Shown one piece after another: positions 2,183 to 9,865 of a DNA stretch of 10,068 bases. The translations under genes and the position numbers were made by a program. The notes beneath the pieces are model-generated. The model was not told where the DNA came from and searched no databases. It saw nothing but the letters and a program-made list of their open reading frames with translations. The DNA comes from Deltaproteobacteria bacterium. Lineage in GTDB: Bacteria; Desulfobacterota; BSN033; UBA1163. Numbering within the stretch: the stretch's first letter is position 1; each line of letters begins with the position of its first letter. Location: the NCBI GenBank assembly GCA_016875255.1, contig VGRU01000126.1, forward strand, positions 1-10,068, written 5' to 3'.

Positions 2183-2218
2183 TTGATGGATATTTTTAGC
2201 TGTGAGGGCGGTAGAAAG

Positions 2219-3652
2219 ATGCGACCCGACGTACAAAAAAGAATTAAGAAAGTTGACACCAAAAGTTGGAAGAATATCTCCGTGGAGTTCGGCAAAAATG
2301 GGATAGACATTCTCGTACCCCCAAACTGCGTGGAACTGACGATGAAGGAGGTGCCTGTTTTGCCCAATCCACGGGAAGCGATTGAGGAGGCTCTCCTCAA
2401 CCCCCTTGGCAGTCCTCCTCTAAGAGAGATCATCCTGAAAAAGGGAAAGCCTCCGGAAGAGATGTCTGTGGCCATTGCCGTTTCCGATATCACCCGGCCT
2501 GTTCCTTATAAGGGAGAAGCCGGCATTCTTCCGCCTTTGCTGAGACAGTTGGAGTCTTCAGGCATTAAAAAAGAGAACATCAAGATCATTGTGGCAACAG
2601 GAATGCATCGGGCGAGCACTGAGGAAGAGAAGGTGGAGATGTATGGGAAGGAGGTTGTCGAACAGTATACGATCCTTGATCACGATTGCGAGCGGAACGA
2701 TCTTCTGGAGAGCATTGGAACCACCAAAAGAGGGACGCATGTCTATGTCAATAAGGACTTTTACTTTGCGGATATCAAGATCGCCACTGGACTGGTCGAA
2801 AGCCATTTCTTCACTGGCATCTCCGGCGGAAGAAAGTCGATCTGCCCCGGCCTGGTTGATGTGAAAACGATACAGAAATTTCATGGTCCTGCCTATCTCG
2901 AAGATCCCAATGCGACGAACCTTGTCCTCGAAGGGAATCCCTGTCATGAGGAGGCGCTGGAGGTTGCCCGGACCGTCGGGGTTGATTTTGTGATCAATGT
3001 CAATCTGAACAAGGCTCTGCAACTCATCCGAATCTTCACGGGGGATATGGAAGAGGCAAACCTGAAGGCGTTTGAAATGATCAAGGACTATGCAGAAATA
3101 CCTATTGAGGAAGAGTTCGATCTTGTGCTCACTCATAGCGGATATGTGGGAAGGGATCACTATCAGACCGCAAAGGCAGGCGTTGGGGCTCTTCCTGCGG
3201 TGAAAAAGGGAGGCGTCATTATCATTGCGGCCAACAACCGGGACCACATCGAACCCATCGGGTCTCCGGAATATAGAAGCCTGATTCACCTGCTAAAATT
3301 ACAGGGGCCGGATGGATATCTCAATTTGCTGAGAACTCCCGCGTGGAAATTTACCAAAGACCAGTGGGAGCCCGAGGTCTGGGGAAAGGTTTTAAGAAAA
3401 GTGGGGGAGGAGGGATTGATCTACTGTTCTCTCGAGATTGAGAGAAAAAACTATTGCCTTCTTCCCGGCGTTTGCGGCCTCGATCTTTTGAAGAACAAGA
3501 GGATCAAACCCTCTCTTGAAAAGGCACGGGAGATGGTTCAGAAGGCGGTCCTCTTTGCCATTCATCGATACCGGGAAAAAGGAATCGAACCGACCATGGC
3601 CTTCCTCCGGGAAGGCCCCTATGCCGTTCCTGTCCTTAAAAAGAGTTTATAA
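2219..3652 (+). CDS. larA: LarA-family nickel-pincer racemase/epimerase (lactate racemase homologue)
   Basis: LarA enzymes use a nickel pincer nucleotide cofactor to racemise or epimerise alpha-hydroxy acids by hydride transfer. The active-site set of Lactiplantibacillus LarA can be matched by motif and spacing. Numbered from the start chosen here: SDITRP (Asp90, Arg93), TGMHRA (His130, general acid/base), ESHFF (His196), GGRKSICPG (Lys206, cofactor attachment), His222 sixteen residues later (nickel ligand), and YQTAK (Tyr315, Gln316, Lys319). At 477 residues it is longer than typical members (about 425). ATG at 2219 is chosen because GAGG lies at 2204-2207. An upstream TTG at 2183 or ATG at 2186 would add 12 or 11 residues but has no ribosome-binding site. 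No larB, larC or larE cofactor genes lie nearby, so the cofactor must be made from elsewhere. LarA homologues differ in substrate, so lactate is only the default guess. Confidence 0.85.
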   Translation: MRPDVQKRIKKVDTKSWKNISVEFGKNGIDILVPPNCVELTMKEVPVLPNPREAIEEALLNPLGSPPLREIILKKGKPPEEMSVAIAVSDITRPVPYKGEAGILPPLLRQLESSGIKKENIKIIVATGMHRASTEEEKVEMYGKEVVEQYTILDHDCERNDLLESIGTTKRGTHVYVNKDFYFADIKIATGLVESHFFTGISGGRKSICPGLVDVKTIQKFHGPAYLEDPNATNLVLEGNPCHEEALEVARTVGVDFVINVNLNKALQLIRIFTGDMEEANLKAFEMIKDYAEIPIEEEFDLVLTHSGYVGRDHYQTAKAGVGALPAVKKGGVIIIAANNRDHIEPIGSPEYRSLIHLLKLQGPDGYLNLLRTPAWKFTKDQWEPEVWGKVLRKVGEEGLIYCSLEIERKNYCLLPGVCGLDLLKNKRIKPSLEKAREMVQKAVLFAIHRYREKGIEPTMAFLREGPYAVPVLKKSL

Positions 3653-5960: not shown

Positions 5961-6049
5961 GCCTGGGTGGCGGAATTGGTAGACGCAAGGGACTTAAAAT
6001 CCCTCGGTGGTCCCCCACCGTGCCGGTTCAAGTCCGGCCCTAGGCACCA
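5961..6049 (+). tRNA. tRNA-Leu (anticodon UAA)
   Basis: A complete cloverleaf can be folded by eye. The acceptor GCCTGGG pairs with CCTAGGC (one G-U). The D-stem is GCG/CGC around AATTGGTAGA. The anticodon stem AGGGA/TCCCT has loop CTTAAAA, with anticodon TAA at 5995-5997. A long class II variable arm CGGTGG-TCCC-CCACCG follows, then T-arm GCCGG-TTCAAGT-CCGGC and discriminator A. The CCA end is encoded at 6047-6049. The anticodon and long variable arm identify leucine, reading UUA (and UUG by wobble). It is read away from ilvD. tRNA genes are frequent integration sites, but no duplicated 3' end is visible here. Confidence 0.97.
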
Positions 6050-6056
6050 AGGAGAC

Positions 6057-6095
6057 AAGGGGGGGTAGCTGATGATCGGTTGTCCCCCTTTTTTT
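6057..6095 (+). terminator. Rho-independent terminator of tRNA-Leu
   Basis: A stem AAGGGGG/CCCCCTT with about 18 bases of loop (some loop G and C can shift the pairing) runs directly into a T-tract at 6089-6095. It starts eight bases after the tRNA CCA end, as expected for a monocistronic tRNA transcript. Confidence 0.75.
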
Positions 6096-6194
6096 GTTCT
6101 GTGAACCTGACTGTATCCGTTTTCCTGGGGCCGGAGGGTCGTCAGAGGATAAAAATAATAGATAGAGACCAAAACCTATCCTCGTTTCTTTTTG

Positions 6195-6223
6195 TTGAAA
6201 TATCGATTTTTTACTTTTATGAT
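6195..6223 (+). promoter_or_regulatory. Promoter of the acyl-CoA dehydrogenase-etfBA operon
   Basis: TTGAAA (6195-6200) and TATGAT (6218-6223), each 5/6 to the sigma70 consensus, are separated by exactly 17 bases in an AT-rich tract. Transcription would start near 6230, leaving about a 30-base leader before the start codon at 6261. This is the best promoter match in the window. Confidence 0.6.
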
Positions 6224-6236
6224 ATCCATGATCATA
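6218..6236. promoter_or_regulatory. Inverted repeat TATGAT-N7-ATCATA over the -10 box (possible operator)
   Basis: The left arm is the -10 hexamer itself, and the right arm (6231-6236) lies just past the predicted transcription start. A dimeric regulator bound here would block RNA polymerase. The XRE-cupin module at the C-terminus of the operon's own EtfA is an obvious but untested candidate. The arms are only six bases and AT-rich. Confidence 0.35.
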
Positions 6237-6260
6237 TAACTTGAAACCGGGGTAACGGAA

Positions 6261-7412
6261 TTGGATTTCAACCTATCGCTCAAACAGAAACAGACCAGGC
6301 GCATGGTGAGACAATTTGCCAAAGCGGAACTGATTCCGATTGCCGGGGAGATTGATGAGGAAGGCCGTTTCCCCTGGGAGGTCGTGGAGAAGATGGGGCC
6401 TCTCAATTTTTTCGGAATGCAGGCCCCGAGACAATACGGTGGATCTGAGATTGACTCCATTTCCTATTGTCTGGTTATTGAGGAGGTCTCCCGGGCGTGT
6501 GCGGCCATGGGGCTGACGATCGCCGTGCACAACAGCGTGTGCGTCTATCCCCTGACCAAATTCGGCGATGATGAACAGAGATCCAAATTTTTGCCCCCTC
6601 TGGCTGCAGGCGAAAAGATCGGGGCTTTCTGCCTGACCGAACCCAATGCCGGGTCCGATGCCATGGCGATTGAATCCACCGCTATCCGTGATGGCGAATC
6701 CTATATCGTCAACGCCAACAAAATATTCGTCACCAACGGAGGGGTAGCCGACACCCTGATCATCTTCACTTCGGTCAATCCGGGCGATGTCAAGAGAGGT
6801 TTTAGCGCCATCGTCGTGGAACGGGGGACCCCTGGGTTTGAAGTAGGCCTTCTTGAAAACAATTGCGGCATGCGTGCCAATCCCGTCAGCTCAATCGTCC
6901 TGACAGACTGTCGTGTGCCCAAGACCAACCTCCTGGGAAGGGAAGGGGATGGATTCAAAATTGCCATGGCGGCCCTGGATACAGGACGAATTGGGATTGC
7001 ATCCCAGGCCGTGGGAATCGCTCAAGGAGCTCTTGACGCCTCCCTGAAGTATGCCAAAGAGCGAATCCAATTTCGTGTCCCACTGGCCCGTCACCAGGCG
7101 ATTCAGATGATGCTCGCAGACATGGGTACGATGGTTGAGGCGGCCCGGCTTCTGACCCTACAGGCCGCCCATATTAAGGATCAGGGCGGGGACCTGTCCG
7201 GTCCATCCGCTATGGCCAAGCTATTTGCAGGACGCACCGCCTCGAAGGTGGCCTCCATGGGGGTTCAGATTCATGGAGGTTACGGATACAGCAAAGACTA
7301 TCCGATCGAGCGTTATTTTCGGGATGCCCGTGCGACAGAGATTTACGAGGGAACGAATGAAATTCAACAAATCGTGATCGCCCGGGAATTACTGAAACGG
7401 GAGGAAGACTGA
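6261..7412 (+). CDS. Acyl-CoA dehydrogenase, FAD-dependent
   Basis: It oxidises an acyl-CoA to the trans-2-enoyl-CoA with FAD and hands electrons to ETF, here presumably the EtfBA encoded next. The 383-residue length fits soluble tetrameric short/medium-chain members. Visible motifs are the FAD/substrate signature CLTEPNAGSDA (124-134), FVTNGG (156-161), the flavin-binding QIHGGYGY (336-343), and the catalytic-base region IYEGTNEIQ with Glu363. That position corresponds to the Glu of butyryl- and medium-chain enzymes, rather than the isovaleryl/long-chain location. The start is TTG at 6261: the family's typical MDFNL opening follows it, and the next in-frame ATG (6303) would remove 14 conserved residues. 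The ribosome-binding site is weak (GGGG at 6249-6252). Chain length and branched versus straight substrate cannot be read from the sequence. Confidence 0.92.
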   Translation: MDFNLSLKQKQTRRMVRQFAKAELIPIAGEIDEEGRFPWEVVEKMGPLNFFGMQAPRQYGGSEIDSISYCLVIEEVSRACAAMGLTIAVHNSVCVYPLTKFGDDEQRSKFLPPLAAGEKIGAFCLTEPNAGSDAMAIESTAIRDGESYIVNANKIFVTNGGVADTLIIFTSVNPGDVKRGFSAIVVERGTPGFEVGLLENNCGMRANPVSSIVLTDCRVPKTNLLGREGDGFKIAMAALDTGRIGIASQAVGIAQGALDASLKYAKERIQFRVPLARHQAIQMMLADMGTMVEAARLLTLQAAHIKDQGGDLSGPSAMAKLFAGRTASKVASMGVQIHGGYGYSKDYPIERYFRDARATEIYEGTNEIQQIVIARELLKREED

Positions 7413-7489: not shown

Positions 7490-8275
7490 ATGAATATCAT
7501 CGTATGCATCAAACAGGTGGTCGCGGGAGATCAGGTGAAATTCGATCCCCGCACCCACCGCCTTGTGCGCTCCTCCGATATGTCACGAATCAATCCTTTC
7601 GATCTGTTCGCTCTTGAGATGGGGGTGAGGCTTAAAAAGGAGTATGGCGGCTCAGTGACGGTTCTCACGATGGGGCCCGAGATCAGCGAGGAGGTCCTGT
7701 GGGAGGCCCTGGCCTTCGGAGCTGATGGGGCTGTGCTCCTGACCGACCCACGTTTTGCCAACAGCGATACTCTGGCCACCTCCTATGTACTCGGGATGGC
7801 CATCCGGAAAATCGGCCATTATGACCTGATCCTTTGTGGTTTAAGGACAACCGATAGCGGGACCGCACAGGTAGGGCCGCAACTGGCTGAGGAACTGGGT
7901 ATTCCTCATGTGTCCGGTGTGGAGAGTCTTAAGGAGAGGGAGAGTCTATTTCAAGCCGAACGGGTCTCCGATGGGTATAGAGAAATGATAGAAGTGTCCA
8001 CCCCCGCCCTCTTTATGGTTTCCTCCAAAGTCAAAATACGGACTCCGAGTTTAAACGAAATTCAGGATGCTTTCACCCGATATCGCATCGAGCGCTGGAA
8101 TCTGGAGGATTTAAATGCCGATCCACAAAAGGTTGGGAGTCAGGGGTCCTGCACCTGGGTGGAAGAGTTGATCCCACTCCCTCAGCAAAAAACCTGTGTC
8201 TTTGTCGAGGGGGACCCCAGGGAACAAGCCCGGTCACTCATTAAAAAATTAACGGAGAAGAATTTGGTGTCTTAG
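7490..8275 (+). CDS. etfB: Electron transfer flavoprotein beta subunit (EtfB)
   Basis: The small subunit of ETF, forming a heterodimer with EtfA to shuttle electrons from acyl-CoA dehydrogenase. The 261-residue protein has the family opening MNIIVCIKQV, INPFDLFALE (34-43), GADGAVLLTD (77-86), SDTLATS (92-98), and TDSGTAQVGPQLAEELGIP (121-139). The SDTLATS block resembles the DTxATS segment of clostridial-type EtfB, which belong to bifurcating systems and carry a second FAD instead of AMP. That assignment is an inference. The usual DGDT of the nucleotide loop reads DSGT here, so the cofactor at this site is uncertain. GGAG at 7481-7484 lies five bases before the ATG. The gene follows the dehydrogenase by 77 bases and is nine bases ahead of etfA, indicating one operon. 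Confidence 0.92.
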   Translation: MNIIVCIKQVVAGDQVKFDPRTHRLVRSSDMSRINPFDLFALEMGVRLKKEYGGSVTVLTMGPEISEEVLWEALAFGADGAVLLTDPRFANSDTLATSYVLGMAIRKIGHYDLILCGLRTTDSGTAQVGPQLAEELGIPHVSGVESLKERESLFQAERVSDGYREMIEVSTPALFMVSSKVKIRTPSLNEIQDAFTRYRIERWNLEDLNADPQKVGSQGSCTWVEELIPLPQQKTCVFVEGDPREQARSLIKKLTEKNLVS

Positions 8276-8284
8276 AATCGAGCC

Positions 8285-9865
8285 ATGAAGAAAGGTTTAG
8301 AGATCTGGGTATTTGGAGACCATCGCCGCTTTCCCCAGGACCGCTTGACCCTTCAAGCTCTTGGGAAGGCCCGGACGCTTGCGGGTGATCAAGGGAGAGT
8401 TACGGCAATCCTTTTGGGGCATCAGTTGGGGGAAGTCGCCCGAGAATATGTTGCCCGCGGCGCTCAGCGCATCCTCCTGGTGGATGACCCGACATTAGCA
8501 TTCTATCGAATCGATTTATTTACAGACCTCATCGGTGATCTGATTCAGGAGCACCGGCCGGAGATTTTTCTTCTAGGAGCTTCCGACTTCGGACTGGAAC
8601 TGGCAGCGAGGGTCGCCAAACGACTCGGAGTCGGGCTCAGTGCTGATTGTGTCTCTCTGGATTGGGATGAGCCAAAAGAGAGATTGATCGCTTCGAGTCC
8701 CGCTTTCGGAGGAAATTATTTAGCCCGGATCGCTTGGAGTAAAGCCCGGCCTTACATGGCCACCCTCAGCGCTGGAACTTTTTTCGAACGCCCGTATGAT
8801 CAAAACGAGCATGGAGAGATTGTGAAGGTGGAACGGAAGCTCAGTGACGTTTCAACCAAAATCAATCTACTCTCCTCTGTTTATGAACCCCATCCGACGG
8901 TTAAGTTGGAAGAGGCAAAAATCGTGATTGCCGGGGGCCGGGGAGTGAAAAACATAGAAGGGTTCAATTACCTCAGAGAGCTGGCCATGCTTCTGGGAGG
9001 AGAGTTGGGGGCCACCCGGCCTGCCGTGGACGCCCATTGGACGTCACATGAGCAGTTAATTGGTCAGACAGGCAAGTCGGTCAAGCCGGAGTTGTTGATC
9101 ACGTGCGGCACCTCGGGCGCGGTCCAATATACGGCAGCCATTCAGGGGACGGGGACGATTGTGGCAGTCAACCGTGACTCCCATGCACCCATCTTCAAGA
9201 TGGCCAGTATCGGAGTGGTGGCCGACACGCACACCTTTCTGCCCGCTTTTATTACGGAGGTGAAACATCATCTCTTCCGGGAGATTACCGACCTCTATCG
9301 GATCCAGGTCAGGAACGGAAGGGACCAGAGGTCAGTCACCTTCGGCCAGCGGATCAGAAAATTGAGGGAAGACCACAAGATGAGCGTTATGGATCTGGCC
9401 GAAAAAACCGGTCATCCCCCGGAGTTTATCGAGGAAATAGAAGCAGATGGTTTGACCCCTCCGGTCTCCTTTCTGTTGCAGCTCTCACAGGCCCTCCAAA
9501 TTGATCCGAGTCACTTTCTGACCGAGCAGGAAAAGGTTCAAATCGAAGGAAAGAGGCAGGAAGGGTTTGTAAAGCGGACGCAGAATTATTCTTATCGAAC
9601 CCTGACCCCGGGGGGAGCGGATAAGCACCTTCGGGCCTTCCTGGTTACGATTGAACCCAGAGAGGCCCATAAAATGGTGGAATATAAGCATCCGGGAGAA
9701 GAGTTCATTTTCGTTTACAAGGGGGAGTTGGAATTGACGTTAGGAGGTAAAGTGTTCCATTTGAAACAGGGGGAGACCCTCCACTTCGATTCTGAAACGA
9801 AACATAAACTCCGAAATATTTCGGATGAAAAATGCGAACTTCTGGTAACGCTCTATACCCCATGA
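8285..9865 (+). CDS. etfA: EtfA fused to XRE-type helix-turn-helix and cupin domains
   Basis: A 526-residue protein, about 200 longer than ordinary EtfA. Residues 1-335 are the alpha subunit: an N-terminal alpha/beta domain, then the FAD domain with VIAGGRGV (214-221), LGATRPAVDA (241-250, FAD-contacting Arg245), GQTGK (260-264) and VAVNRDSHAPIF (293-304). The EtfA signature SGAIQH reads SGAVQY, so Tyr282 replaces the His near the flavin. No extra ferredoxin domain is present. Without a stop codon the chain continues through a short linker into a helix-turn-helix (about 352-412, FGQRIRKLRE to ALQIDPSHFL). A cupin follows (about 440-524), with YKHPGEEFIFVYKGEL (His469, Glu473) and ETKHKLRN (His507). 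HTH_XRE-cupin proteins are normally free-standing ligand-responsive repressors. Here the module may make ETF alpha a regulator as well. The ribosome-binding site is weak; the start lies nine bases after the etfB stop, suggesting translational coupling. Confidence 0.9.
   Translation: MKKGLEIWVFGDHRRFPQDRLTLQALGKARTLAGDQGRVTAILLGHQLGEVAREYVARGAQRILLVDDPTLAFYRIDLFTDLIGDLIQEHRPEIFLLGASDFGLELAARVAKRLGVGLSADCVSLDWDEPKERLIASSPAFGGNYLARIAWSKARPYMATLSAGTFFERPYDQNEHGEIVKVERKLSDVSTKINLLSSVYEPHPTVKLEEAKIVIAGGRGVKNIEGFNYLRELAMLLGGELGATRPAVDAHWTSHEQLIGQTGKSVKPELLITCGTSGAVQYTAAIQGTGTIVAVNRDSHAPIFKMASIGVVADTHTFLPAFITEVKHHLFREITDLYRIQVRNGRDQRSVTFGQRIRKLREDHKMSVMDLAEKTGHPPEFIEEIEADGLTPPVSFLLQLSQALQIDPSHFLTEQEKVQIEGKRQEGFVKRTQNYSYRTLTPGGADKHLRAFLVTIEPREAHKMVEYKHPGEEFIFVYKGELELTLGGKVFHLKQGETLHFDSETKHKLRNISDEKCELLVTLYTP
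9338..9520 (+). other. XRE helix-turn-helix domain within the EtfA fusion
   Basis: Codons 352-412 encode a HTH_XRE-like fold: RIRKLRE as helix 1, then SVMDLAEKTG and PPEFIEEIE as the helix-turn-helix, then VSFLLQLSQALQI. The order and spacing match lambda-repressor-type domains of XRE-cupin regulators. Confidence 0.8.
9602..9862 (+). other. Cupin domain within the EtfA fusion
   Basis: Codons 440-526 encode a small conserved beta-barrel. HPGEEFIFVYKGE is cupin motif 1, with the first His of HxH replaced (Tyr467). GETLHFDSETKHKLRN is motif 2 with His507. His469, Glu473 and His507 could bind a metal, but one canonical ligand is missing, so the domain may sense a small molecule without metal. 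Confidence 0.8.

Follow-up and report, generated by a model that had tools for sequence, protein, structure and literature searches.

The 10,068-nucleotide window analysed in the present study (Deltaproteobacteria bacterium, assembly GCA_016875255.1, contig VGRU01000126.1) contains a gene in which the complete alpha subunit of an electron transfer flavoprotein (ETF), EtfA, continues in frame into an XRE helix-turn-helix (HTH) and a cupin. This XRE-cupin module (hereafter XRC) looks like a regulator of acyl-CoA dehydrogenase (ACAD) genes that was later fused to the ETF. Our tentative proposal, to which we give slightly less than even weight, is that XRC proteins serve as dedicated regulators of ACAD systems in the window's phylum, that one old lineage incorporated such a regulator into its electron carrier, and that the ETF there senses a metabolite of the acyl-CoA pathway, perhaps also its own flavin state via the mobile domain binding flavin adenine dinucleotide (FAD), signalling to DNA or to the ETF/ACAD complex.

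The fusion is encoded by one uninterrupted frame from the ATG at 8285 to the stop codon ending at 9865 (526 amino acids in 526 codons, no internal stops). Pfam models HTH_19, HTH_3 and HTH_26 (at about residues 354-413) and Cupin_2 (453-521) scored above their curated cut-offs, with HTH_31 slightly below its own. Comparison of a predicted structure model with solved chains matched residues 4-333 to EtfA, with 7koe_B and 5ol2_A reaching 331-333, which extends the EtfA part to about residue 333, past the Pfam core end at 287. The model has a helix at residues 315-344, and residues 433-526 match cupins, including cupins of XRE regulators. The initial annotation of a full EtfA running in frame into an HTH and a cupin is therefore borne out by frame, Pfam and structure match. 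Among 60 aligned fusions, G260, T262, G263, S277, G278, A279, Q281, N296 and D298 are invariant and Q261 nearly so, retaining the pattern GQTG, SGAxQ and NxD, which we take to be the FAD site of ETF alpha. An alignment of 88 tails, fused and unfused together, has 15 residues identical in all of them, including Y467, H469, G471, E472, E473, F474, G480 and H507 of the cupin. At 22 loci the HTH lies 35-41 residues beyond an EtfA end marker, so that the linkers are similar across relatives in length though not in sequence (11% identity between the two main fused clades over residues 336-352). No start codon that could free the tail is conserved between EtfA and HTH at these 22 loci, some of which have none.

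The initial annotation had left room for a hidden stop codon or frameshift at the junction, and for a domain order (ETF_alpha - HTH_XRE - cupin) confined to this genome. Both doubts are answered by full-length fusions without internal stops in 21 of 395 genomes sampled from the window's phylum, representing eight families. The fusion is patchy near home, being present in 6/17 genomes of the nearest family and missing from the nearest compared genome (G001), yet it is not private to this genome. An assembly error, frameshift or private accident, to which the gap in G001 might point, we consider already refuted by this recurrence and by a homologue that is 93% identical and present in several sources. 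Two homologue searches listed 120 matches each, the first out of 1255 scoring and the second, queried with 14 distant fusions and the window's, 120 more out of 1107. Matches listed by the first had 99-100% coverage and 70-93% identity, all with ETF, ETF_alpha and Cupin_2; an HTH model was present in 118/120 (as read from the table) and in 119/120 of those listed by the second. Most of the matches listed carry no source name; the names given are mostly Thermodesulfobacteriota or Deltaproteobacteria, including Desulfatibacillum aliphaticivorans and Desulfatiglans anilini, with a few metagenome-assembled genomes that bear no label beyond Proteobacteria or Pseudomonadota. Each half belongs to a known family, and the architecture is already visible in databases, since some sources name both ETF alpha and cupin ('electron transfer flavoprotein alpha subunit/quercetin dioxygenase-like cupin family protein'). 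A literature search by title and abstract start, with most subscription journals and bioRxiv outside its range, found no paper on an EtfA-XRE-cupin protein, and passages on the ETFs of Desulfococcus multivorans in one study make no mention of such a tail (PMC5109826).

ACAD, EtfB and the fusion gene appear to form an operon in that order, the fusion gene beginning ten bases after EtfB. In the window and 23 genomes, which together give 24 fused loci, EtfB is present in all and ACAD lies upstream in 23; at the exception, on a 7-kb contig of G064, a glycosyltransferase and an epimerase precede EtfB. One locus (L055) reads thiolase, 3-hydroxyacyl-CoA dehydrogenase, ACAD, EtfB, fusion, and ACAD also adjoins the ETF genes at 8/9 loci of tail-less EtfA siblings (L065-L073). 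Together with the ACAD linkage of 40/64 unfused relatives, this upholds the placement of the fusion in acyl-CoA metabolism. A promoter like TTGAAA-17-TATGAT is common to the upstream regions of seven close relatives, less clearly in L047; its weight rests on this conservation, because the consensus matches three times in the stretch against 3.0 expected. The best Protein Data Bank (PDB) chains for both EtfA and EtfB come from bifurcating complexes, making the ETF by sequence closest to the electron-bifurcating kind and bifurcation a candidate activity. The bifurcating-type EtfA chains (7koe, 6fah, 5ol2, 4kpu, 7qh2) differ from the window's protein in having no C-terminal XRE-cupin, and in having H rather than Y after SGAxQ. 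The H-to-Y change was ruled out as a mark of fusion, as it also occurs in three tail-less siblings (L065, L066, L072).

One old fusion event is the simplest reading of the trees. A tree built from 60 EtfA domains groups 21 fusions together (support 98/98) and leaves the three of family f4 apart, while a tree of the tails places all 24 fused tails on one side of a branch (support 96/85). Two independent fusions, of 21 and of the three from f4, are unneeded, since holding all 24 together in the EtfA tree is not rejected (approximately unbiased test, p 0.541). A separate observation concerns L049, on a 4.5-kb contig of G113: the genome is coded to family f21 and its fusion gene nests with f1 in both trees, indicating transfer or a binning error.

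Tail matches at 1e-35 were found in 94 of the 395 genomes, fused tails included. Standalone XRC proteins are mostly 180-200 amino acids long, and at 39 of 47 loci examined the next gene downstream, on the same strand, is an ACAD, which lies within 100 bases in 30 cases; at L194 it is next upstream. Over all standalone loci 40/64 are ACAD-linked and 24/64 unlinked, a linked fraction biased upwards because 40 loci were chosen by similarity to one ACAD-linked XRC. Unlinked XRC genes occur in families f1, f2, f3, f12 and f14, among which are close kin of the window. Genes upstream of XRC include a mutase, a B12-binding protein and MeaB at L168, and an IcmF-like mutase, a thiolase and a 3-hydroxyacyl-CoA dehydrogenase at L162. 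In a quick tree the XRC-linked ACADs form one clade (39 rows, support 99), separate from the ACADs found in ETF operons with or without the tail (30 rows, support 99). XRC thus became associated with ACADs both as a neighbouring gene and as an ETF tail.

Where XRC is unlinked in family f1, the family of the window, a candidate operator is the 14-base palindrome TCATTATATAATGA. Allowing up to three mismatches, it lies within 260 bases upstream of XRC at 12 of 16 standalone loci (L074-L078, L082, L104-L113), against a mean of 0.52 and a maximum of 2 in shuffles, the loci compared being related. At one mismatch or fewer there are 19 places in 17 genomes, versus one for the pattern read backwards. 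Upstream of XRC or ACAD lie 12 of the 19: nine (all five exact ones plus four) within 400 bases upstream of XRC and three immediately ahead of one particular ACAD gene, near which are found an iron-sulphur/FAD oxidoreductase and, in two of three cases, EtfBA genes. The other seven fall inside frames (five), between genes (one) and at a contig end (one). Of 12 orthologues of that ACAD, seven have an upstream site at up to three mismatches (shuffles 0.22, at most 2; control windows 0/92). These counts are inflated by promoters, because the motif contains TATAAT. Unlinked XRC nevertheless looks as if it binds DNA and regulates both its own gene and an ACAD operon, a candidate regulon. The fused tail in turn looks regulator-derived, because its unfused kin are ACAD-linked and an XRE-type palindrome precedes both XRC and the ACAD operon. 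For ACAD-linked XRC (10 loci), CTGAT-7-ATCAG was found in 7/10 (shuffles 2.70); it was set aside as an operator, as it apparently falls within the conserved coding stretch of the upstream gene, and may still be real. One off-target palindrome, in G011, lies about 630 bases from a different XRE-cupin gene (L201:4222-4776; 45 bits to the XRC query).

The fused HTH is acidic, in contrast to the basic HTH of most unfused relatives and of four E. coli XRE regulators. Its net charge is zero or below in 59 of 60 fusions (mean -2.35), and in a second alignment the mean is -1.46 for fused (n=24), +0.68 for ACAD-linked unfused (n=40) and +3.83 for unlinked unfused modules (n=24); E. coli XRE controls have +3 (PuuR), +4 (SutR), +2 (HipB) and +8 (DicA). 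Helix 3 reads mostly QxPEFIxQVExD in fusions, from which the window differs at H377, E384 and I385. Alignment and half-site counts revealed no palindrome clearly common to the upstream regions of seven close fused operons. AT-rich 5-base half-sites shared among these regions number 32, versus 18.0 in shuffles (standard deviation 5.6), and the best half-site occurs in 4/7 regions at 5 bases (shuffles 2.45), in 2/7 at 6 bases (1.30) and in one at 7 bases. Nor does the palindrome of unfused XRC precede any of these seven operons, one of which is the window's. The 6180-6260 region, named in the initial annotation for a DNA-binding test, holds a conserved sigma-70-like promoter, without an XRC site and without a palindrome clearly shared by the seven relatives. 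Of the earlier idea that the ETF acts as its own regulator, the probable regulator origin of the tail is supported, while the acidic HTH and the lack of a clear operator make autoregulation less likely.

Several known proteins offer partial parallels. The order of XRE HTH followed by cupin is that of XRE-cupin regulators (PuuR, SutR, PsdR; 1y9q, 6b8w), from which the window's module differs in being covalently part of an ETF subunit and in its acidic HTH. Trifunctional PutA likewise joins a flavoprotein and a DNA-binding module in a single chain (PMC5293562); the window's protein is instead an electron carrier, its XRE-cupin is C-terminal and its DNA binding is putative. Hydroxypropylphosphonic acid epoxidase (HppE) combines an HTH-like domain and a cupin in an enzyme, with fold matches near E 1e-9; it has no flavoprotein part and the relation is remote. 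The HTH-like part of HppE is not known to bind DNA, and a literature search gave no paper on this point.

We lean, with confidence somewhat short of even, towards a tethered sensor of the acyl-CoA pathway that acts on the ETF/ACAD complex and has lost some or all of its DNA binding. The ancestor would have regulated ACAD genes by binding DNA, its cupin sensing a metabolite of short-chain acyl-CoA oxidation, and the fusion would have retained the cupin pocket. The linker of near-constant length would tether XRC to the FAD domain, the counterpart of which (domain II) is mobile and swings between partners in the C. difficile complex (PMC5691135). Because XRC is held at a near-constant length from a mobile domain, ligand binding and XRC dimerisation could alter ETF/ACAD assembly or electron transfer, with the HTH kept as a folded interaction surface. 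The presence among the fold matches of HppE, in which an enzyme has a comparable HTH-cupin fold, supports action at the protein level. In favour of this reading count also the recurrence of the fusion and its operon, the residues identical in all tails, the acidic HTH, the absence of the XRC palindrome before the close fused operons, and a linker conserved in length though not in sequence. Several points weigh against it: comparison of the two main fused clades gives the HTH (54% identity) about the same conservation as the FAD domain (56%) and nearly that of the cupin (59%; ETF N-domain 31%), which also fits DNA binding; one fused HTH of the 60 has a net charge of +5; charges of ACAD-linked unfused modules span -9 to +6; net charge is an indirect sign of DNA binding, with four outside controls; and the domain arrangement in the predicted model is unreliable (predicted template modelling score 0.45).

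That the fused HTH does bind DNA, making the protein a trigger enzyme like PutA in which the ETF, depending on its cupin-bound ligand or its flavin, switches its own operon or further acyl-CoA genes on or off, is a serious possibility that we place only narrowly behind the tethered sensor. The identities just given place the HTH under strong selection, and the XRC kin are regulator-like, with the palindrome before XRC and before ACAD. XRE-cupins often regulate adjoining genes (PMC10965056) and PutA is a flavoenzyme with a DNA-binding domain that represses its own regulon (PMC5293562). Weighing against DNA binding are the acidity of the fused HTH, the want of a clearly shared palindrome before the seven close fused operons, and an ACAD that starts close behind another gene at several distant loci. 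A scaffold that merely dimerises the ETF, with no sensing, would account for a conserved HTH and cupin with an acidic HTH, and cupin and XRE modules often dimerise; we regard it as unlikely, as invariant residues line the expected cupin pocket and its approach, and do so in the unfused proteins too. Less probable still is a metal-dependent or catalytic cupin that would carry out an extra reaction on an acyl-CoA or an acid, much as HppE acts on its own substrate. HppE chains appear among the fold matches, the metal site of HppE consists of two His and one Glu, and H469, E473 and H507 are identical in all 88 tails; these residues do not mark an enzyme, however, because PuuR also has H-x-G-E-E and a later H.

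Table 1 Features of the fusion gene and its operon (window positions; residues numbered in the fusion protein)
Feature	Position	Strand	Basis
Sigma-70-like promoter TTGAAA-17-TATGAT ahead of operon	6195..6223	+	Consensus match, similar in close relatives
Acyl-CoA dehydrogenase (ACAD)	6261..7412	+	Nearest NCBIfam model acryloyl-CoA reductase AcrC, below cut-off (468.3 of 640 bits)
EtfB, ETF beta subunit	7490..8275	+	Pfam ETF; closest PDB chains from bifurcating-type complexes
Fusion gene EtfA - XRE HTH - cupin, 526 amino acids	8285..9865	+	Frame, Pfam, recurrence
ETF domain, residues 8-184	8306..8836	+	Pfam PF01012, 114.4 bits vs cut-off 26.7
ETF_alpha, FAD-binding domain core, residues 207-287	8903..9145	+	Pfam PF00766, 103.4 bits vs cut-off 27
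Long helix plus linker between EtfA and HTH, residues 315-352	9227..9340	+	Length conserved, sequence not
XRE helix-turn-helix, residues 353-413, acidic	9341..9523	+	Pfam HTH_19/HTH_3; net charge -4
Putative recognition helix, residues 377-390	9413..9454	+	Inferred from model helices and PuuR/SutR/HipB/DicA alignment
HTH-to-cupin segment, residues 414-446; invariant R431, Y435, Y437, L440 (88/88 tails)	9524..9622	+	
Cupin, residues 447-526	9623..9862	+	Pfam Cupin_2 453-521; invariant residues

Elsewhere in the window, a single frame of 586 amino acids at 302-2062 combines a short-chain dehydrogenase at residues 8-195 (adh_short) with a MaoC-like dehydratase domain at 471-558, and 2183-3652 encodes a LarA-like protein (Lar_N) that falls below the cut-offs of every LarA-type NCBIfam model matched. 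Upstream of the operon a tRNA-Leu gene (anticodon taa) at 5961-6049 is followed, at 6057-6091, by a hairpin resembling a terminator.

It is common to regard ETFs as passive carriers, and we know of no ETF with a self-regulating design. The linkage of unfused XRC to ACAD and the candidate operator provide named partners and sites, and D. aliphaticivorans and D. anilini provide named hosts. If the proposed reading is true, acyl-CoA oxidation in these anaerobes would be controlled at the carrier itself, via a regulator-derived sensor on the FAD subunit.
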